The translations under genes were made by a program, and so were the position numbers. This document shows, piece after piece, positions 5,556-60,559 of a stretch of 64,000 bases of DNA; the first letter of the stretch is position 1; the number at the start of each line of letters is the position of its first letter. Under the pieces are notes generated by a model. The model did not search any database, had not been told where the DNA came from, and worked only from the letters and a program-made list of their open reading frames with translations. The stretch is from a virus. The DNA lies in IMG/VR virus record IMGVR_UViG_3300017951_000002, positions 1-64,000 of that record; one strand, given 5' to 3'.

Positions 5556-5972
5556 TCAGGGCTCCTCGGTCCCGTACTCTAAGCCGTCGATTGATTCGAC
5601 CAAGCCTTTGAGGTACTGGTGGACAGAATCTTCTTGCCAGCCCGATTCCGAAATCAGTGCGTCACCAATGGCATTAAGAGCTTCGGTGTGGCGGTCAGTC
5701 CAATCATCGGTTTCCTTGGCGTGGTCACGCACTTGATTGGCAGAGGCCAACAGGCGAAGTTCCATGGCCTGGCTTTCCAGTTCACTCGTGCCTGTCTCCT
5801 CCATGCTCTCTATGAGTCGTGAGTACGTTTCGACCCTTTTCTTGTCGATCAAATTCATTAGAAAGTACCCAATGTTACCAACAACCTTGAGAGAAACCGT
5901 GCTCACGAAGCTGATCAGCCAGATGAGTGACGCAGACCCTTGGGTGACGGCATTGAATGCGAATCCTCTCAT
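5556..5972 (-). CDS. Membrane-anchored helical protein
   Basis: 138 residues. The N-terminal part is hydrophobic (about residues 10-42, probably one or two membrane helices), followed by a long acidic helical domain (LIDKKRVETYSRLIESMEET...). AGGAAA lies before the ATG at 5972. It is last in the leftward replication operon, so it could tether the replication machinery to membrane, but that is inference. Confidence 0.7.
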   Translation of the reverse strand: MRGFAFNAVTQGSASLIWLISFVSTVSLKVVGNIGYFLMNLIDKKRVETYSRLIESMEETGTSELESQAMELRLLASANQVRDHAKETDDWTDRHTEALNAIGDALISESGWQEDSVHQYLKGLVESIDGLEYGTEEP

Positions 5973-10042: not shown

Positions 10043-10882
10043 ATGTCTGATTCCATTCAATCCTGGCTCAATGCAGCAGGCCGCTTCCCGCTCCTGCCCC
10101 AGTCCGAGCTGATTCGCCTTGCCAAGAAGCGCGACTCCCTAAAGCCTGGCAGCGCAGCTTACGCCAAGGTGATCAACAAGATCTGCGAACACAACCTGCG
10201 CCTTGTACCGAACGTTGTCCGCAGCTATATCAGGAAACGCTCTGGATACACCATGGGCAGCGAGGTCATTTCAGACCTTCTGCAGCAGGGTTACATCGGC
10301 CTCCGCCGTGCCGCTGAGAAGTACGATCCATCCCTGGGCTACGCTTTTTCCACTTACGCCCACCGCTGGATCTCACAGGCCTTCATCCGTTGGCATAACA
10401 GCCATGATCGGACTATCTACATTCCCGAAAACTCGATGTGCGAAGTTCTGTACCGCTGGCGGAACGGTAAGCCCAGCAGGTCCAAGAACGGCAAGATTGG
10501 TAGCAGCATAATCAACTGCGCTATCCGTGCTACGGAGATCAGTTCCATTGACCAACGCGCAGGCGAAGACGGTGATACGGCTACCATTGCTGACTTGATT
10601 TCCGAAGAAAACCTGATTCTGCCCCGTACCAGCGCAGACAAGAGCTATGCCGAGGTGAAAATCAAGAATCTGATGGACGAGTGTGGCATCAAGCCTCGCG
10701 TTCAGAGCATTGTCATGACATATGCCAAGAAAGGCAACATGAAAATGACTGCCTATAAGCTGGGCCTCTGCTCTAACACCTGCCGCAAGCTCTACAATGA
10801 GGCCTTTGAGGTGATGAAATCCAAGGCCGACGAAAAGGAAGCAGCCGCCGCATCCGTTCGGGCTGTTAGAATGGGAAGGTAA
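10043..10882 (+). CDS. RNA polymerase sigma-70-family factor
   Basis: 279 residues. Region 2 is clear (about residues 50-118): KICEHNLRLVPNVVRSYIR, then DLLQQGYIGLRRAAEKYDPS, then AFSTYAHRWISQAFIRW, the core-binding and -10-recognition helices of sigma-70 proteins. The C-terminal third (about 205-265) may be a divergent region 4, with a weak helix-turn-helix around MTAYKLGLCSNTCRKLYNEA. It probably redirects host polymerase to phage promoters, for example the late boxes. GAGGA precedes the ATG; its last codons contain the SSB promoter. Confidence 0.88.
   Translation: MSDSIQSWLNAAGRFPLLPQSELIRLAKKRDSLKPGSAAYAKVINKICEHNLRLVPNVVRSYIRKRSGYTMGSEVISDLLQQGYIGLRRAAEKYDPSLGYAFSTYAHRWISQAFIRWHNSHDRTIYIPENSMCEVLYRWRNGKPSRSKNGKIGSSIINCAIRATEISSIDQRAGEDGDTATIADLISEENLILPRTSADKSYAEVKIKNLMDECGIKPRVQSIVMTYAKKGNMKMTAYKLGLCSNTCRKLYNEAFEVMKSKADEKEAAAASVRAVRMGR
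10867..10872 (+). promoter_or_regulatory. -10 box TAGAAT before ssb
   Basis: CTGTTAGAATGG, an extended -10 inside the last codons of the sigma gene, 39 bp before the ssb start. No clear -35 was seen. Confidence 0.55.
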
Positions 10883-15600: not shown

Positions 15601-17117
15601 TGTCCACTAAGCTCGGCAAAGACTACCTGGAGTACGCCGCTTCAGGTCAGGACCTTCTCAAGGAGGTCAAGAAAAAGAAGTCCGCCAAGAATGCGGAACG
15701 TGTTGTGCTGTGGAAGTTCATCAAGAAGGTGATGCCCAGCTACAAATTCTACAAATTTCACGCAACTGTAATTGAACAACTCCAGCGAGTCATTGATGGA
15801 AAGTGCAACCGCCTTATCTTGCAGGTCCCGCCGCGACACGGAAAGTCGCTTCTTGCTTCGCAGCTTCTTCCTGCTGCTTACCTACTGGCTCACCCTGAGC
15901 GTTACGTCGGTATTTCTTCCTACTCAGCCGAACTTGCTGAGGGATTCTCTCGAAAGGCACGAGAGTTCTTCAAGGATGGTGGTGGGCTCCTGAATGAAAG
16001 CTCAAAAGCTGTCAATGCTTGGGGTACTGAGGGAGGCGGAGGCCTGTGGGCTGCTGGCGTGGGTGGCGCCGTCACTGGTCGCTCAGGCCATTTACTCATC
16101 ATCGACGACCCCGTCAAGAACCGAGAAGACGCGGAATCAGGCCGCATGATGGAGAAGCTCAATGACTGGTACACATCCACCCTCTACACCCGTCTTGAGC
16201 CACATGTCGGCGCTATCGTGGTCATTCAGACCCGATGGTCTGAAAACGACATGATCGGGCAACTGCTCGAAAACGAACACAACGTATCTGAAAAAGGCCG
16301 TGAAAACTGGACTGTTGTTGACCTCCCTGCCCTCTACGAAGACGAATCCGACAGACCAATCCTGCCAGCTCACTGTCCCACTGTTCCTGATTGGCGTTCT
16401 GAACTGGGCGAAGCACTCTGCCCCCAGCGTTACGACACGGATGCCCTGGAGCGAATCCGTGAAGCCGTTGGGTCTAGGGACTTTGCTTCGCTGTACCAGC
16501 AGCGGCCAGCTCCCGAGGGTGGCAACATGTTCAATCCTGACTGGTGGCAATTTTACAGTTGGGATACTACTCTCCCTGAATTCCAGAGAGTCATGCTTAG
16601 CGTTGACTGTACCTTCACCGATACCAAGAAAAGCGACTACGTGGTGGGTGCTGTGGTCGGGCAAGCTGGGAACCAGTTCTACGTTCTTGACCTCGTCAGG
16701 GAGAAGCTGGACGTGGTAGGTACCATGGCGATGATCGCTAGGCTCTATAAGCGGCATGCCTTGTCTGGCACTGTGATCGAACTTGCGGCATCAGGCTACG
16801 CGGTCTATCAGATGATGCAGAAGAAGGTACCAGGGCTGATCGGCTTCAAACCAGAGAAGTCCAAGACCTCGCGAGCTGCGGGCATCGTGCCGCTGGTGGA
16901 GGCTGGCAACGTCTTCCTGCCTGCTAGCGCTTCCTGGTTGGACGCATTTTTGAACGAATTCGCCCTGTTCCCTGCTTCTAAAAATGATGACATGGTGGAC
17001 GCCTTGACGATGGCAATCAACTACTGTAGCCAGCGCTCCGCTCCGACGATGACCTCCGTCACCTGGGGGCGAGGTGACAGGGCTTTGCCCGATGCCGCGC
17101 ATTATCGGGCTTGGTAG
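15600..17117 (+). CDS. terL: Terminase large subunit
   Basis: 505 residues. ATPase domain: Walker A in LQVPPRHGKSLLASQ (about residues 76-90), Walker B in HLLIIDDPVKN (about 164-174), then a coupling motif near IVVIQTRW. Nuclease domain: MLSVDCTFTDT with the first catalytic Asp (about 334), later YVLDLVREK and the final DDMVDALTMA (about 462-471). It pumps DNA into proheads through the portal at 26550 and cuts the concatemer. Confidence 0.95.
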   Translation: MSTKLGKDYLEYAASGQDLLKEVKKKKSAKNAERVVLWKFIKKVMPSYKFYKFHATVIEQLQRVIDGKCNRLILQVPPRHGKSLLASQLLPAAYLLAHPERYVGISSYSAELAEGFSRKAREFFKDGGGLLNESSKAVNAWGTEGGGGLWAAGVGGAVTGRSGHLLIIDDPVKNREDAESGRMMEKLNDWYTSTLYTRLEPHVGAIVVIQTRWSENDMIGQLLENEHNVSEKGRENWTVVDLPALYEDESDRPILPAHCPTVPDWRSELGEALCPQRYDTDALERIREAVGSRDFASLYQQRPAPEGGNMFNPDWWQFYSWDTTLPEFQRVMLSVDCTFTDTKKSDYVVGAVVGQAGNQFYVLDLVREKLDVVGTMAMIARLYKRHALSGTVIELAASGYAVYQMMQKKVPGLIGFKPEKSKTSRAAGIVPLVEAGNVFLPASASWLDAFLNEFALFPASKNDDMVDALTMAINYCSQRSAPTMTSVTWGRGDRALPDAAHYRAW

Positions 17118-17901: not shown

Positions 17902-19461
17902 ATGGCAATCACCCCTGCTTCATTAGAAAAGCTCAAGTCTGGCTCGATCTCCAAGGTTATCGAGAGCCTTGGCAGTAAGCTGAAGCGGGTGGGTCGCGAA
18001 TATGTCACCCAGTGCATCTGGCACCAAGACACCAACCCGTCGCTGACGATCAACGACGACAAGGGTTTCTGTTTCTGCCATGTCTGCCGCAACGGTGGCG
18101 ATGTCATTGCTTACACCCGCCAGCGCAAGGGTCTGGACTTCGTCGATGCTGCGAATCTCTCAGCCTCTATCCTGGGGATCAGCCTGGAGACCGACGGGAT
18201 CAGTCCCGAGGAACAGGAGAAGCGCAAGAAGGCGCGACAGGCTGCGCTAGCTAAGCTGCAGAAGGATCAGGATCAGTGGAAGGCGAACCTGCACGACTCC
18301 CGAGCGGGTCGCATCCGCCAGATCCTGAAGGATCGTGGACTGAACACAGAGGCTGCAGAGGAGTTCGGCCTAGGCTTTGCTCCTGACGGCTTCTTTGCTG
18401 GCCGCATCACTATACCTATCCACAACCACAACAACGAACTAGTGGGATGGACGGGTCGTGCCACTGGTGATCAGACTGGCAAATACAAGAACAGTTCTGA
18501 TGGCGACCTGTTCCATAAGAAGAGCCTGGTGTTTAACGAGCATCGCGCCAAAGAAGCAGCCCGCTTAACGGGATCGCTAATCTTCGTCGAAGGCCATCTG
18601 GACGTGGTGTCGCTGTGGCAGCATGGCGTGGCCAATGCTGTTGCCATGCAGGGAACAGGAGCCCCTGAGCCGTTCGTCCTTGAACGCCTGGCCCGTTCTG
18701 TTGACAACTTTGTTCTGTGCTTTGATGGCGACGAGGGTGGTCGCAAGGCAGTGCAGCACTTCATCGCAGCCGCTGGCCCGATGGCGCAATCTGGCAAGCT
18801 GCAGATCAACATTGCTCAGATGCCTGCAGGCAAGGACCCTGACGAGGTGTGCCGCGAGTCTGGTGCTGACGCATTCCACGCCTTGGTGGCCGATGCTACG
18901 CCCTGGCTGGACTGGGTGATCGACTTCTGGGCGGCAGATCTCGACAAGAATGACACCAAGATGGTGACAGAGGTCGAGACAGAGCTTCGCAAGGTGATCG
19001 ACAAGCTTTCCTCGGCTGCGGTAAGGGCACACTATGTGGACAAGGCTGCACGAGCACTGTCGCAGAGCACCAAGGAAGCCCAATCGGTCATCAAGTCCTG
19101 GGGCACCTTCGAGGAGGTTAGGGTCGAGCGAGCATGGCAAGTACGCTCTGCTGAAAAGTGCCGCATTGCAACTGAGCGCCGCATGCTGCGAATTTTTGTC
19201 CATAGGCCGCACCTGCGCGATCAACTGCGCCCACTGCTGGCTGCTGTGTCCCATCCGCCTCTGAGATGGCTCTGTGAGCGCCTGGAGGAGTTAGAAGAGC
19301 ACTGCGAGACCGATCTTACCCCACATAGCGTCATGGCCGTTGTAGCGGCTTCTGAGCCCCACTTCCTGCAGCAGCTGCGGACGGTGGTGCAGCCGAATGT
19401 GCAGATCGATGAAACGGATGGAGTGTTACAGCACATTGAGCGAACGCTCACGACCTGTTAG
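17902..19461 (+). CDS. dnaG: DNA primase, DnaG type
   Basis: 519 residues. N-terminal CHC2 zinc finger: TQCIWHQDTNPSL, then FCFCHVCRNGGDVIAY (about residues 35-72). Toprim core: LIFVEGHLDVV (about 226-236) with the catalytic Glu, and FVLCFDGDEGGRKA (about 269-282) with the metal-binding Asp pair. The C-terminal about 150 residues would contact the helicase. It makes primers for the fork with the DnaB-type helicase at 5996. Confidence 0.93.
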   Translation: MAITPASLEKLKSGSISKVIESLGSKLKRVGREYVTQCIWHQDTNPSLTINDDKGFCFCHVCRNGGDVIAYTRQRKGLDFVDAANLSASILGISLETDGISPEEQEKRKKARQAALAKLQKDQDQWKANLHDSRAGRIRQILKDRGLNTEAAEEFGLGFAPDGFFAGRITIPIHNHNNELVGWTGRATGDQTGKYKNSSDGDLFHKKSLVFNEHRAKEAARLTGSLIFVEGHLDVVSLWQHGVANAVAMQGTGAPEPFVLERLARSVDNFVLCFDGDEGGRKAVQHFIAAAGPMAQSGKLQINIAQMPAGKDPDEVCRESGADAFHALVADATPWLDWVIDFWAADLDKNDTKMVTEVETELRKVIDKLSSAAVRAHYVDKAARALSQSTKEAQSVIKSWGTFEEVRVERAWQVRSAEKCRIATERRMLRIFVHRPHLRDQLRPLLAAVSHPPLRWLCERLEELEEHCETDLTPHSVMAVVAASEPHFLQQLRTVVQPNVQIDETDGVLQHIERTLTTC

Positions 19462-19512: not shown

Positions 19513-20661
19513 ATGACATCTCAGAACAGCATTTCCCTCAAAGGTCTGCCCCTTGCTTCCATCGACTGTGGAGGTAAGAAACTGCACTTTTGCTACGAGG
19601 ACGGCAAGTACGTTGTCGTGGCCCGTGACAAATTTATCAAGGACCCTGCCAAGTACCTTCGCCCTGGTTACATCTACGGCATCGAGTTCATCCATGCCGT
19701 GCCTCGTCGCGAAAGCGGCTTTGTGAGCCAGTCCCAGTACTACACCGAGACCCAATGGACTGCAATCCACCTCGCCCTCGCATCTATCGGGTCGCGCCTT
19801 GTTTACCTGAGCGCAAACGAGACCTGGAAGTGGCGTGTAAGCGCCCTTGGTGTCGACAAAAGCGACTATGCGGATTGTCAAGCCCTCTTGATCCAGATGC
19901 AGAACAAGGATCGCCTGCCGCTACTGAAGCCGTTTTCACCTGACGACGTTGGTGTTGTTGAGGCCTGGGCACGGACGGTCCGCGAAGAGGAGCTGAACGA
20001 GATGGCCATCAACCTGGGCACCGTTGGCTACCCCGCTTTCCCTGCGACAGAGAAGCTGCTAGAGATCCATGACGACATCATCGATGCTATCGAGGCTGAC
20101 GCCGCAGACGAAAACTGCGCCGATCAAAAGGTTGCCAAGGAGGTGCTGAAGTACTGTTACCAGAAACTGGAAGGGTGTAAGGAGTCTTTTGTTGGAGAAG
20201 ATGGCAAGAAAAAGCAGCGAACCGTTAAGGACGTTAACGGCGAGACCGTTTACAGTGTGGCTCGCAAGGGTGCTGGTGCCATTTCACCGTCTGTTGAGAT
20301 CGCTTGGATGGTGACGCACATGATGGATGGTTCTCTGCGCAAGGGTCCTGGTGGTCAGGACCTGACCCTCGGCCTAATCACCCGCTCACTGCTGAAGATG
20401 CGCGAGCACCGTGGCATCGCCAAGTCTGGTACCATGCGTGCCTACCTCTACAACTTCAACCTGAAGGCCATCCAGCGCATGATCGCTCACATCGACTACG
20501 GGTACAACCTCAACAGCAGTGCGAAGTACAAGATCATCAGCCGCGTTCGTGGCGAAGGTAATCAGGCAACCGAGTACGACATCCGCAAGGATTCCCTGCG
20601 GTTCCTCGGACGCTCAACCAAGTATCTGTGCCGCCTGTGTCAGCGCCCCGAGTTCAACTGA
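19513..20661 (+). CDS. Conserved-looking hypothetical protein
   Basis: 382 residues, well-formed coding sequence with AGGAG before the ATG. Contains YVVVARDKFIKDPAKYLRPG, then SPSVEIAWMVTHMMDGSL and MRAYLYNFNLKAIQRMIAHI. No transmembrane segment or known catalytic motif. Its stop lies immediately before the promoter of the RNA array. Placement after primase suggests a replication-stage role; nothing more can be said. Confidence 0.8.
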   Translation: MTSQNSISLKGLPLASIDCGGKKLHFCYEDGKYVVVARDKFIKDPAKYLRPGYIYGIEFIHAVPRRESGFVSQSQYYTETQWTAIHLALASIGSRLVYLSANETWKWRVSALGVDKSDYADCQALLIQMQNKDRLPLLKPFSPDDVGVVEAWARTVREEELNEMAINLGTVGYPAFPATEKLLEIHDDIIDAIEADAADENCADQKVAKEVLKYCYQKLEGCKESFVGEDGKKKQRTVKDVNGETVYSVARKGAGAISPSVEIAWMVTHMMDGSLRKGPGGQDLTLGLITRSLLKMREHRGIAKSGTMRAYLYNFNLKAIQRMIAHIDYGYNLNSSAKYKIISRVRGEGNQATEYDIRKDSLRFLGRSTKYLCRLCQRPEFN

Positions 20662-20666
20662 CCTGT

Positions 20667-20672
20667 TAGAAT
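20667..20672 (+). promoter_or_regulatory. -10 box TAGAAT for RNA array A
   Basis: CCTGTTAGAATAGAGG. Exactly 8 bases separate it from RNA unit 1, as at the two other RNA loci. No clear -35. Confidence 0.65.
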
Positions 20673-20678
20673 AGAGGT

Positions 20679-20953
20679 ATGCGGCCCAAGGGTTAGCTGG
20701 TTCCGTCCAGCCCACGAACTAGCCGCCACCTTCCTTTTTCTCTTTGCATGCAGCCCATATATTAGCTAGTTCAATCTAGCCCATAAATTAGCTGCCTCTG
20801 CATCCACTCTTGCGGTCTGGCCCATGTATTAGCTGTGATCCAGCCCATCAATTAGCCAGTCGCACCCTCTTGACTTCTCGCCCAAAGACTAGCTGTGATC
20901 CAGCCCAGTTGTTAGCGAGCGTCACCAGCGAACCGCCTTCACGGGCGGTTTTC
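20679..20953 (+). ncRNA. Small-RNA gene A with four tandem structured units
   Basis: A promoter-to-terminator unit without ORFs. Units lie at 20681-20726, 20750-20795, 20817-20859 and 20877-20919. Each has an outer 5-bp stem (GCGGC/GCCGC, GCAGC/GCTGC, CTGGC/GCCAG, CTCGC/GCGAG), a symmetric internal loop whose two strands both read CCANNNNYTA, an inner 4-5-bp stem (GCTGG/CCAGC, GCTAG/CTAGC, GCTG/CAGC twice) and a 5-6-nt loop. Stem changes are compensated. I know no RNA family with this pattern. Confidence 0.8.
20931..20953 (+). terminator. Terminator of RNA array A
   Basis: AACCGCC-TTCACG-GGCGGTT stem-loop followed by TTCT. Confidence 0.75.
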
Positions 20954-20956
20954 TGC

Positions 20957-20962
20957 TATAAT
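20957..20962 (+). promoter_or_regulatory. -10 box TATAAT
   Basis: CTGCTATAATGG, an extended -10 directly after the terminator and before the 20969 ORF. Confidence 0.55.
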
Positions 20963-20968
20963 GGCAAC

Positions 20969-21139
20969 ATGGACATCCTTCAATCTCTCTGGAGCTGGGC
21001 TATGACCCCGTTCCGTAAACCAACCCCTGTTTTTTATGTCGACGGCAACACGCGCATCCAGATCCTTCCGCCACGGGACAATCAGCGAAAAACGCTTCGC
21101 ACACCACCTGCGGGGCCTTGGGATCGACTTCACAACTGA
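20969..21139 (+). CDS. Small hypothetical protein overlapping the nuclease
   Basis: 56 residues starting MDILQSLWSWAM, directly after the TATAAT box. It overlaps the 21036 gene by about 100 bases in another frame, so one of the two starts is likely wrong. Its codons in the overlap are less convincing than the nuclease frame. Confidence 0.35.
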   Translation: MDILQSLWSWAMTPFRKPTPVFYVDGNTRIQILPPRDNQRKTLRTPPAGPWDRLHN

Positions 21140-23633: not shown

Positions 23634-25952
23634 ATGTCAGAATTTCGTCCACAAGCTCCCTCCGCAGAAACCGTTTTCTACCGCACGTACAGCCGCCGCA
23701 AACAAGACGGCACCCGCGAGAACTTTCAGGAGGCTATGACCCGCACGGTCGATGATCTTGCACGGATTGGCAAGTTTACCGAGCAAGAAGCCGCGCAAGT
23801 CACCGAGCAAGCCTTAGCTCAGCACGCATTCCCCTCTGGTCGCGCCTTCTGGGTGGCTGGTACCGAATGGGGCCAGAAGCAGGAGAACTTCTCAGGCTAC
23901 TACAACTGCACGTCCACCCACATGTCCGACCTGGAAGCCTTCGGGCTTATGGTAGACCTGGCAATGCAGGGCTCTGGCACTGGCGCTGTGCTTGAGCAGG
24001 ATGTAATCGATGCCCTTCCTGCCGTTAGCCACGAGCTGGAGATCGTCTCGACCACCGAGATCGGCACGAACTCCGCCCGCCGCGCTGAGACCACCTTTGA
24101 CACCCTGCTGCCTTCTGGCGCTGTAACCCTCTCTGTGGGCGATTCCCGCAAGGGCTGGCAGGATGCCTACCAGCTGATCGTTAACTGGGCTCACGAGGGC
24201 CTGGAGCACCACGAGGGGCACATCCGCATCCACCTGGATCTGGGCAACGTCCGCCCCGCTGGCGAGCGTCTGAAGGGTTTCGGCGGCACTTCTAACCCTA
24301 TCAAGCTGGAGGTCATGTTCCGCAAGGTTGTGGATCTGCTGAACGGTGCCGTAGGCCGCAAGCTCACCACTGTCGAAGCCTGCCTGCTGATCGACGAGGC
24401 CGCTGCCTGCATCGTTGCTGGTAACATCCGCCGCTCTGCTGGTATGCGCCAGTTCAGTCAGGACGACCAAGAGGCTGCTACCGCCAAGCTTGGCCTTTAC
24501 AGCCAGGACGAGGACGGCAACTGGCGCGTGGACCCAAAGAAGGAAGCCCTTCGCATGGCGAACCATACCCGTTGCTACCACAGCAAGCCAGACTACAAAA
24601 CCGTAGAGGACGCCGTACTCCTGCAGTTCAGCTCTGGAGAAGGCGCCATTCAATATGTGCCTGAGTCCGTGGCTCGCGCTAACGTGGACATCCTGCCTGA
24701 CCCTGCCTCCAAGCGCGGTTTCCTGGAGCTATACAACCTGAAGGGACGCGAGGCTGCCAAGCGTTACCTAGGGCTTGCCTTCCAAGCCACCTACGGCGAG
24801 GAGTGCGATGAGCGGGAACTGCAGCACCGTATGGACCGCTATGGTCTGAACCCCTGCGGCGAGATCATTGGTCGCGACTTCCACTGCAACCTGGCTGAAG
24901 TTCATCTCAATACCATTGATCCCAACGACAAACAGGCTCAAGAAGCGGCCTTCTACGCTGCTGGCCTCCAGGTCGCGGCCCTCCTGCAACACGAATTTGT
25001 GCATGAGCGCTACCAGTACAGTCGGAGCATTGATCCGATTGTTGGCGTCAGCTTTACTGGTCTCTTCGATTTTCTTGTTCACGCACTAGGCTACGAGTGG
25101 CTGCGCTGGATGATGCAGGGTCGCCCTGACAACCGCGCCGCCAAGTTGTTCGTCGGCAAGGAACGCAACTACCTGTCCCGCTGGCGGAAGGCTGCTCGTG
25201 ATGGCGTGGTTGCCTACTGCGAGAAGCACGGCATTCGCATCCCGAATCGCATCACCACCGTCCAGCCTGCTGGCACCAAGTCACTGCTGACTGGCGCCTC
25301 CTCTGGCTGGCATCCGCCCAAAGCTCAACGTTTTATTCGGAGAATCACCCTTGGTGTCAATGATCCTCTGGTGCCTGCTCTTATTGAGCACGGTTATAGC
25401 GTCATCCCTGCCCAGTCCGCTCGCGACGACGATGGCAACCTGCTTGACGACATTTCCGATCCTCGTGTTCATGAGGTGCTGGTGGAGATCCCGACCGAAG
25501 TAAGCTGGGCAAACATCCCTGGCTGTGATGAGTTTGACCTGGCTAAACTGCCTGTCGAAGCCCAGTATTGCCTCTATATGCAGGTTCAACAATACTACAC
25601 AGAGCACAACACGTCAGCCACTATCGAGCTGCGTGAAGAGGAGGTTCCTGTTCTGTCCAAGTTGATCTACGAGAACATCCAGGAGAACGGCGGCTACATT
25701 TCCGCAGCTCTGTTGGCTCGATTCGACGTTGACGGCGGTACCTTCCCAAGGCTCCCGTTTGAGCCAATCTCCAAAGAGCGTTATGATGAACTCATGGCAA
25801 TCCAAGAAATCTCAGGCGAAACCGACGAGGACTTTCTGACCACGCTCAACAAATTCGATTCTTCCGACTGGAGTATCGAATCTGTCGCGGGCTGCTCTAA
25901 CGCTGCATGTATCGCTAAAGCAGAAGCCGACGAGCGGGAGAAAGGGGTATGA
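23634..25952 (+). CDS. nrdJ: Adenosylcobalamin-dependent (class II) ribonucleotide reductase
   Basis: 772 residues, the size of monomeric class II ribonucleoside-triphosphate reductases. The loop NPCGEI places Asn406, Cys408 (thiyl radical) and Glu410. Cys92 (in YYNCTSTH) and Cys418 would be the redox pair, and the C-terminal CSNAAC (Cys754, Cys759) the reducing shuttle. It makes dNTPs from NTPs using vitamin B12 without oxygen. Followed by overlapping dcd; the glutaredoxin at 21530 is a likely reductant. Confidence 0.93.
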   Translation: MSEFRPQAPSAETVFYRTYSRRKQDGTRENFQEAMTRTVDDLARIGKFTEQEAAQVTEQALAQHAFPSGRAFWVAGTEWGQKQENFSGYYNCTSTHMSDLEAFGLMVDLAMQGSGTGAVLEQDVIDALPAVSHELEIVSTTEIGTNSARRAETTFDTLLPSGAVTLSVGDSRKGWQDAYQLIVNWAHEGLEHHEGHIRIHLDLGNVRPAGERLKGFGGTSNPIKLEVMFRKVVDLLNGAVGRKLTTVEACLLIDEAAACIVAGNIRRSAGMRQFSQDDQEAATAKLGLYSQDEDGNWRVDPKKEALRMANHTRCYHSKPDYKTVEDAVLLQFSSGEGAIQYVPESVARANVDILPDPASKRGFLELYNLKGREAAKRYLGLAFQATYGEECDERELQHRMDRYGLNPCGEIIGRDFHCNLAEVHLNTIDPNDKQAQEAAFYAAGLQVAALLQHEFVHERYQYSRSIDPIVGVSFTGLFDFLVHALGYEWLRWMMQGRPDNRAAKLFVGKERNYLSRWRKAARDGVVAYCEKHGIRIPNRITTVQPAGTKSLLTGASSGWHPPKAQRFIRRITLGVNDPLVPALIEHGYSVIPAQSARDDDGNLLDDISDPRVHEVLVEIPTEVSWANIPGCDEFDLAKLPVEAQYCLYMQVQQYYTEHNTSATIELREEEVPVLSKLIYENIQENGGYISAALLARFDVDGGTFPRLPFEPISKERYDELMAIQEISGETDEDFLTTLNKFDSSDWSIESVAGCSNAACIAKAEADEREKGV

Positions 25953-30328: not shown

Positions 30329-30409
30329 GAGGGTAAGGCGTTGGACCCGTAAGGGTCGCAATTCGATCCAGAGCAAGCAACGGGGCTCTGGGCACTGTGG
30401 AGTATTCCA

Positions 30410-30577: not shown

Positions 30578-30588
30578 CCTGTTAGAAT
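30561..30588 (+). promoter_or_regulatory. Sigma70-like promoter for RNA gene B
   Basis: TTGCCT (30561-30566), 16 bp spacer, TAGAAT (30583-30588), 8 bases before the RNA unit. Confidence 0.7.
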
Positions 30589-30594
30589 CAGAGC

Positions 30595-30674
30595 ATGCAG
30601 CCCAATGACTAGCTAGCTCAATCTAGCCCAGACGTTAGCTGCTACCCTGAGAAGCCCCCGAAAGGGGGTTTTTC
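30595..30674 (+). ncRNA. Small-RNA gene B with one structured unit
   Basis: The unit at 30597-30642 has outer stem GCAGC/GCTGC, loop strands CCAATGACTA and CCAGACGTTA, inner stem GCTAG/CTAGC and loop CTCAAT. A terminator follows at once. Predicted transcript about 80 nt, with no ORF. Confidence 0.75.
30654..30674 (+). terminator. Terminator of RNA gene B
   Basis: GCCCCC-GAAA-GGGGG followed by TTTTTC. Confidence 0.85.
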
Positions 30675-59596: not shown

Positions 59597-60319
59597 ATGG
59601 CTGACGAGAACATGACTCCCGAGAAGGAAGTCACCTCCGCCCCCGCTCCAGCAGGCGACGACATGATGCCTCGCTCGGAAGCAGAGAACCTTTTGAAAGC
59701 CCTCAAAGCTGAGCGTGAAGCACGCAAGCAGTACGAGCGCGACCTGAAGGAGACCAAGACTCAACTCGACAAGTTCGCCGAGATCAATCCCGACGAATAT
59801 ACTAAGCTCCAAGCCGAAGCTGCTGAAGCTGCCCGTGTGCAGGCTCAGTGGGGCGAAGCAAAGGAGGCGATCGAGTTGAAGTACAGCAAGGACGCTCAAG
59901 AAGCTGCCTCTAAGGCTGCTGCTGCTGAATCCGCACTGGCTGACTACAAGAAGAAGTACGCCTTGGAAAAGGTGTTCTATGCTGCTGGTGGTCGCACTGA
60001 TGCGGCTGATGGCGTGTCGTTCTTCGACATGATGGCTCAGCAGGTTGGTGCTAACTTCCGCCAGGAAGCTGATGGCTCTCTGACTGTGGTCGACGCTGCT
60101 GGCGATCCTGTGCTTGACAAGGAGTCTGGTAAGCGTGTGTCTGCCGAGGACTACATCGCCTCATATAAAGTCCATCCCATCTACGGTACCTTCTTTAAGG
60201 GTACTAAGGGTGCGGGGGCTGGTATTGGCTATGGCGGCACTGACGCCAACGGGATGCCGACCGAAGATCTGTCAAGCCTAAGCGCTGAGCAACTGTTCCA
60301 ACGCGCTTTCGGTTCCTGA
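59597..60319 (+). CDS. Capsid scaffolding protein
   Basis: 240 residues. Central coiled coil (about 30-120; ENLLKALKAEREARKQYERD, LKETKTQLDKFAEIN), acidic start and a Gly-rich end (GAGAGIGYGGTDANGMP). This is the usual plan of phage scaffolds, and the gene directly precedes the capsid gene. It would shape the prohead and then leave. Confidence 0.82.
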   Translation: MADENMTPEKEVTSAPAPAGDDMMPRSEAENLLKALKAEREARKQYERDLKETKTQLDKFAEINPDEYTKLQAEAAEAARVQAQWGEAKEAIELKYSKDAQEAASKAAAAESALADYKKKYALEKVFYAAGGRTDAADGVSFFDMMAQQVGANFRQEADGSLTVVDAAGDPVLDKESGKRVSAEDYIASYKVHPIYGTFFKGTKGAGAGIGYGGTDANGMPTEDLSSLSAEQLFQRAFGS

Positions 60320-60325
60320 TAGAAT
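60320..60325 (+). promoter_or_regulatory. -10 box TAGAAT for RNA gene C
   Basis: CCTGATAGAATAGG at the scaffold stop codon, 8 bases before the RNA unit; a weak TTCCAA lies 18 bp upstream. Confidence 0.65.
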
Positions 60326-60331
60326 AGGCTC

Positions 60332-60409
60332 ATGCAGCCCATTCACTAGCGAGTTCAATCTCGCCCATAGGTTAGCTGCTACCAGAAAGGCCCTTCGGGG
60401 TCTTTTTTA
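60332..60409 (+). ncRNA. Small-RNA gene C with one structured unit
   Basis: The unit at 60334-60379 has outer stem GCAGC/GCTGC, loop strands CCATTCACTA and CCATAGGTTA, inner stem GCGAG/CTCGC and loop TTCAAT. The inner stem differs from gene B by compensated changes. A terminator follows directly. Confidence 0.75.
60386..60409 (+). terminator. Terminator of RNA gene C
   Basis: AAAGGCCC-TTCG-GGGTCTTT followed by a T run. Confidence 0.75.
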
Positions 60410-60559
60410 TTGGTATAGGTATTATATGGATAGCAGCCCCGTAGGAAAGTTCCGAGATGGAGACGACTGAAAGGGTGCAATTTGTCGAAGCGGTCGTGAC
60501 GGCTGCCTAGGCCTAACACCCACACTCTGTTCTTTCTTACTTTAAGAGGTATTTTTATC
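60410..60559 (+). promoter_or_regulatory. Long leader of the major capsid gene
   Basis: 150 bases without an ORF. It starts GGTATAGGTATTATATGG, a possible strong promoter, and includes GCAGCC...GGCTGC pairing potential and TAAGAGG before the ATG. The standard late box is missing here. Confidence 0.5.

Follow-up and report, generated by a model that had tools for sequence, protein, structure and literature searches.

A two-fold symmetric RNA hairpin in probable small-RNA genes of a cyanophage, and its possible role as a protein decoy

The window analysed here, a stretch of 64,000 nucleotides, belongs to a viral contig of 65,840 bases (IMGVR_UViG_3300017951_000002), the relatives of which are the Synechococcus phages S-CBS2 and S-CRES1-3. 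The capsid protein is 83-85% identical to the versions found in S-CBS2 and S-CRES1-3, and the source virus infects picocyanobacteria. Six copies of an RNA hairpin are found at three loci on the plus strand, namely four in tandem at 20 kb (20681-20919) and single ones at 30 kb (30597-30642) and 60 kb (60334-60379).

The 20-kb locus begins with an orphan gene (19513-20661, +) coding for a 382-residue product. An extended -10 promoter, TGTTAGAAT (20664-20672), is predicted 2 nt past its stop codon, and is followed by hairpins 1 to 4 (20681-20726, 20750-20795, 20817-20859 and 20877-20919), all identified through their half-sites, covariation and model R1 (52.1 bits for the first one), and by a putative intrinsic terminator (20931-20953), indicated by the sequence and by the fold of 20679-20955 (z -4.95). 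Directly past the terminator a separate extended -10, TGCTATAAT (20954-20962), would serve the next gene. The same organization is found in a second phage contig of 4.4 kb, L021, which contains five hairpins past an ortholog of the 19513 gene, with TGGTATAAT as the counterpart of the 20664 promoter at equal spacing, a TATAAT box at the identical 8-base distance from the hairpin, and TGGTATGCT in the place of the downstream box. The genes that follow the array in the window, at 21036 and 21612, give just weak Vsr-like and endolysin-like matches.

At 30 kb, TGTTAGAAT is again found 2 nt past a stop codon, that of a DUF4278-like gene (promoter at 30580-30588, +), and precedes a single hairpin (30597-30642, supported by half-sites, covariation and R1) and an intrinsic terminator (30650-30674) predicted from sequence and RNA folding. 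The DUF4278-like gene is itself preceded by a glutamine-II riboswitch (30336-30392), which is the only Rfam match in the window; the same riboswitch precedes the S-CRES2 DUF4278-like gene, and in L051 it is found at 25365-25426 before a DUF4278-like small protein gene. At 60 kb, the scaffold gene ends with the TGA of the promoter TGATAGAAT (60317-60325, +), and some relatives carry TGATAGACT at this position; the hairpin (60334-60379), recognized by the same three types of evidence, is followed by a terminator predicted from sequence and RNA folding (60384-60409).

An earlier note on this DNA had described a TAGAAT box after the preceding stop codon at each locus, a gap of exactly 8 bases between the box and the RNA unit, a terminator past the last unit, and had predicted transcripts of about 80, 80 and 275 nt. 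The sequence features are confirmed: the boxes lie at 20667-20672, 30583-30588 and 60320-60325, the outer stems start at 20681, 30597 and 60334, the three terminators are all predicted by RNA folding, and the predicted transcripts of about 277 nt (20 kb), 82 and 80 nt agree with the expected sizes.

The box as such is not peculiar to these loci. The TAGAAT box with an upstream TG (TGNTAGAAT) is present in 13 copies in the window against 1.4 expected, most of them devoid of a clear -35 box, often just upstream of gene starts (e.g. before SSB at 10864, a sigma factor at 17112 and the 19513 gene at 19456), with several overlapping the preceding stop codon. It is, therefore, a genuine signal and a general promoter class of this phage, and its location behind a stop codon does not single out the RNA; what distinguishes the RNA genes is the fixed 8-base distance together with the hairpin at the predicted start.

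The half-site GCCCANNNNNTAGC occurs 13 times in the window, where 0.58 would be expected, and 12 of these 13 copies fall inside the six hairpins. Each hairpin, 43-46 nt long, contains two opposed CCANNNRYUA half-sites, one per strand. In an alignment of 11 hairpins (six from the window and five from L021), CCA is kept in 22 of 22 half-sites and YUA in 21, the exception having C for U, and the outer stem undergoes two-sided pair changes at four of its five positions. Standard pairs fill 99% of the pair cells, with 20 two-sided changes versus 5.2 in shuffles and a stem covariation score that none of 500 shuffles reaches, figures that overstate independence since the 11 hairpins share descent. 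In all 11 the 5'-strand RY doublet and its 3'-strand counterpart are reverse complements (AC/GU, GU/AC or AU/AU), a degree of complementarity reached by 25 of 200,000 shuffles (P about 1e-4, with the same caveat of common descent), and the two column pairs involved are the top two among 80; when these pairs are included, two-sided changes rise to 28, against 8.4. Hairpin 2 even exhibits a compensatory RY change between the window and L021 at the same place (AU/AU versus AC/GU). Thus, the motif is two-fold symmetric, and its likely fold consists of an outer stem of 5 bp, CC/A, an A-U pair, an NNN bulge, the R-Y and Y-R pairs, an NNN bulge on the opposite strand, a U-A pair, A/CC and an inner stem of 4-5 bp, although nearest-neighbour energies do not favour the RY:RY core, for which they are less favourable than for the open loop by about 4 to 6 kcal/mol. 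Pairing of the N stretches with one another found no support in the alignment. The apical loops read UUCCGU, UUCAAU, CUCAAU, UCCCAU, UGAUC and CGAUC; mimicry of a T-loop or tRNA by the UUCAAU loop was considered and rejected, as the YGAUC units differ and no tRNA was found. Searches of Rfam 15 returned nothing on the element, either at the gathering cut-off or at E up to 5. The hairpin is a new, intricately folded RNA.

This degree of conservation bears on two simple explanations of the element. Leaderless mini-ORFs might be envisaged, given that the promoter-proximal hairpins read AUG CRG CCC ANN NNY UAG, i.e. a pentapeptide, in four of four cases (20, 30 and 60 kb and L021); however, every second half-site and the array units from the third onward have the motif without the AUG, and the UAG belongs to the motif itself, making this reading extremely improbable. 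A bare structural hairpin shielding the transcripts, or an element for RNA stability or 3'-end processing, would account for hairpins that lie at the predicted 5' end and adjoin the terminator, but would have no need of repeated loop letters, of a symmetric RY complement or of a separate promoter, and we consider it very improbable. The features expected of dedicated small-RNA genes are, instead, present: an own promoter and terminator, a conserved fold and no substantial ORF, the five-codon AUG-UAG frame not being common to all units. On these grounds, the three loci very probably represent dedicated phage small-RNA genes.

The comparison of the two arrays adds information on which letters are constrained. 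Four units are present at 20 kb and five in the orthologous L021 array, and every internal linker has YTCTT a few bases upstream of the next hairpin. The linker CTCTGCATCCACTCTTGC is identical in the window and L021 whereas the NNN letters differ and the third codon positions of the neighbouring genes agree only to the extent of 53%, so that the linkers seem constrained and the NNN free. The identity of this linker, as well as the promoter-terminator layout typical of small RNAs, might be taken to indicate a regulatory RNA that base-pairs with mRNAs through the NNN stretches or the linkers, but the variable stretches are of 3 nt and unrelated between orthologous hairpins, and the single-copy RNAs have no linkers; a base-pairing function is, in our opinion, highly unlikely. 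The conserved loop letters, which exceed what the stems need and enclose three weakly constrained positions, point to a protein as the partner instead of a base-paired target.

The known distribution of the hairpin is narrow. Among the matches listed from four pattern scans of 2.9 million IMG/VR viral contigs, L021 is the only other carrier, and diverged relatives could remain; the other listed matches were discarded as simple repeats or sequences without stems. Scanning 84,980 prokaryote species for the pattern gave 93 hits, of which the stem-forming ones were all simple repeats, and model R1, which does detect the window's own record, found nothing in 292 cyanobacterial genomes. Furthermore, blastn of the three loci against known phages yielded just terminator-like or short chance matches, and the hairpin is in none of the 80 capsid-gene relatives retrieved.

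At conserved sites the element can be seen as present or absent. S-CRES1 and S-CRES2 share the DUF4278-like gene (67-73% identity), and their version of the 30-kb site consists of the stop codon, a few bases and a terminator, with neither promoter nor hairpin. For the 60-kb site, most capsid-gene relatives in which the scaffold end can be read show the scaffold stop, a short spacer and a terminator, and S-CBS2 holds an HNH gene there. In several relatives, L108, L110, L111, L120, L124, L130, L135, L138 and L166, the slot between scaffold stop and terminator contains a different conserved stretch, TGATAGACTGA...CGGAATCTGATGC; this stretch and the HNH gene of S-CBS2 suggest that the slot may act as an insertion hot spot for small elements. 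For the 20-kb site, an equivalent of the upstream gene is known only from L021, which also has the array. Since relatives lacking the element already have the terminator, the piece added at 30 and 60 kb was probably a promoter with a hairpin, placed before pre-existing terminators which seem to belong to the upstream genes, that at 30650-30674 being probably the DUF4278-like gene's own. The earlier note had proposed mobile or copied small-RNA genes on a promoter-to-terminator plan. The presence or absence at conserved sites supports copying, but there was no indication of autonomous mobility, such as a recombinase or a target-site duplication, and only two carriers are known; as to the plan, the own promoter and the layout of the units stand, whereas the box is of a general class and the terminators at 30 and 60 kb appear to be those of the upstream genes. 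The presence/absence pattern also provides a view of a route by which a phage gains small-RNA genes, i.e. by insertion of a promoter and a hairpin before an existing terminator.

The downstream regions are informative with respect to a leader function, which the same note had rejected. At 20 kb the box at 20954, and at 60 kb a promoter-like box and a structured leader of the capsid gene that are common to the element-less relatives examined, would provide for the downstream genes independently, while for 30 kb no promoter was recognized downstream. Promoter-like boxes downstream at two of three loci argue against leaders, relatives without the element keep the genes, and the elements are probably separate small-RNA genes, as proposed. 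The capsid-gene leader (window 60430-60530 and L100-L179, alignment A3), found in S-CBS2-like cyanophages and without an Rfam match in the window, has features of its own: two covarying hairpins with GNGAY-like loops sit inside a GGGUG/CACCC closing helix, and a 5' ACCC and the 3' CACCC could compete for one GGGUG in a switch-like manner. The order promoter, hairpin and terminator at the three loci is also that expected for a cis-acting antitermination or processivity element such as HK022 put, the RNA of which acts alone on RNA polymerase (PMC9378689), with the nascent hairpin modifying the polymerase to allow terminator read-through into the genes behind. The boxes downstream at two loci, and the presence of the same syntenic genes in relatives devoid of the element, stand against this possibility, which we hold to be decidedly unlikely.

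The reading that we prefer is that of small-RNA genes encoding a trans-acting decoy. RNA polymerase would start at the extended -10 promoter placed right behind the upstream gene, and the short RNA produced (about 80, 80 and 277 nt) would have the hairpin at its 5' end and extend to the terminator that follows. The hairpin would act as one symmetric module (outer stem, opposed CCANNNRYUA half-sites, 2-bp RY:RY core and inner stem) binding a protein that probably acts as a dimer or pair. The RNA would then operate in trans and titrate a host RNA-binding or defence protein, as a decoy or an orphan RNA antitoxin whose dose depends on the number of copies (1, 1 and 4 here, 5 in L021). Such a protein-binding RNA would agree with the conserved letters on both strands and the free ones that separate them, with the repeated units in one RNA and with transcription from a dedicated gene. 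Against a decoy speaks the finding that no host counterpart was detected in the scan of 84,980 species or in the 292 cyanobacterial genomes, although mimicry might be expected. The decoy part, i.e. titration of a protein, is tentative, with a probability somewhat under even, and the full explanation, combining small-RNA genes with a protein decoy or orphan antitoxin, comes close to an even chance while staying below it.

As the target, a host protein would be the first choice, and the orphan phage protein encoded beside the array the second. Within the phage, no RRM protein or CsrA is encoded in the record, and RNase III was dropped as a partner: S-CRES gp1 (L048 54-488, minus strand) carries an RNase III annotation, yet the RNase III profile does not match its homolog in the window (5556-5972, minus strand; 38% identity). 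The 19513 product deserves separate consideration, as the array might bind it, and the copies at 30 and 60 kb would then provide additional binding sites for it. Gene and array co-occur in both known carriers; the sole known homolog (L021, 80% amino acid identity) also directly precedes an array, and the gene was found nowhere else: a search of 50,697 phage records gave no homolog even at E = 10, and the IMG/VR scans used exact short peptides, which detect close relatives only. However, the carriers are two and L021 is a fragment, so that the linkage amounts to one observation, and the product, which has a CxxC near its end, has no Pfam match or other recognizable domain, its structure model (pLDDT 43) being too uncertain for a fold search. 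Binding to the 19513 product is, in our estimate, unlikely.

Returning to capture of a host protein, the element could even define a structurally new class of decoy RNAs in phages, in which a symmetric CCANNNRYUA hairpin would capture a dimeric host defence or RNA-binding protein, promoter-hairpin cassettes would have spread before existing terminators and tandem copies would raise the dose; in this full form the proposal is doubtful. A function is known for few phage small RNAs, and for very few of those in cyanophages. With a covarying symmetric motif, dedicated genes and variable dose, a pull-down with synthetic hairpins could name the target and, if this were a defence protein, RNA-based counter-defence would be brought to light in picocyanobacteria.

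Among known systems, the CsrB/RsmZ sponges carry tandem hairpins on one RNA, each binding a dimeric protein. The array resembles them in its tandem hairpins, but the apical loops here are without GGA, and conservation concerns CCA and YUA, located on opposite strands. Structured or regulatory RNAs known from cyanophages include Glutamine-II, wcaG, manA and CfrI, while the hairpin element matches no Rfam family. HK022 put is, as the element here, a phage RNA structure found early in the transcript and upstream of a terminator; it works in cis on the genes behind it, (PMC9378689), whereas the genes behind the element have, at two of three loci, their own promoter-like boxes. A comparable setting is offered by the abiF RNA (RF03085), reported as a lone small RNA of the estuarine Synechococcus cyanophage S-CREM1 (PMC9964418), the covariance model of which has no match to the element up to E = 10. 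Racrs, or solitary repeat units, are a precedent for small phage decoy RNAs, often located directly past a predicted promoter (PMC10651486); they copy host CRISPR repeats, whereas the element is a two-loop hairpin that matches no Rfam CRISPR-repeat family. With regard to type III antitoxins, in which a terminator and then toxN come after the toxI repeats, no ToxN/AbiQ-type toxin (PF13958) was matched in the 65.8-kb record, the profile being equally silent on control genomes, and no toxin-like gene is among the two scanned genes downstream of the array. ToxI units are 36-nt pseudoknots, whereas covariation supports a nested, symmetric hairpin of 43-46 nt here. The pseudo-ToxI repeats of phage PhiTE, which titrate the host toxin as RNA decoys, are phage-encoded tandem repeats of variable copy number (PMC3475682), and tandem repeats between a promoter and a terminator are what is found in the 20-kb array and in L021.
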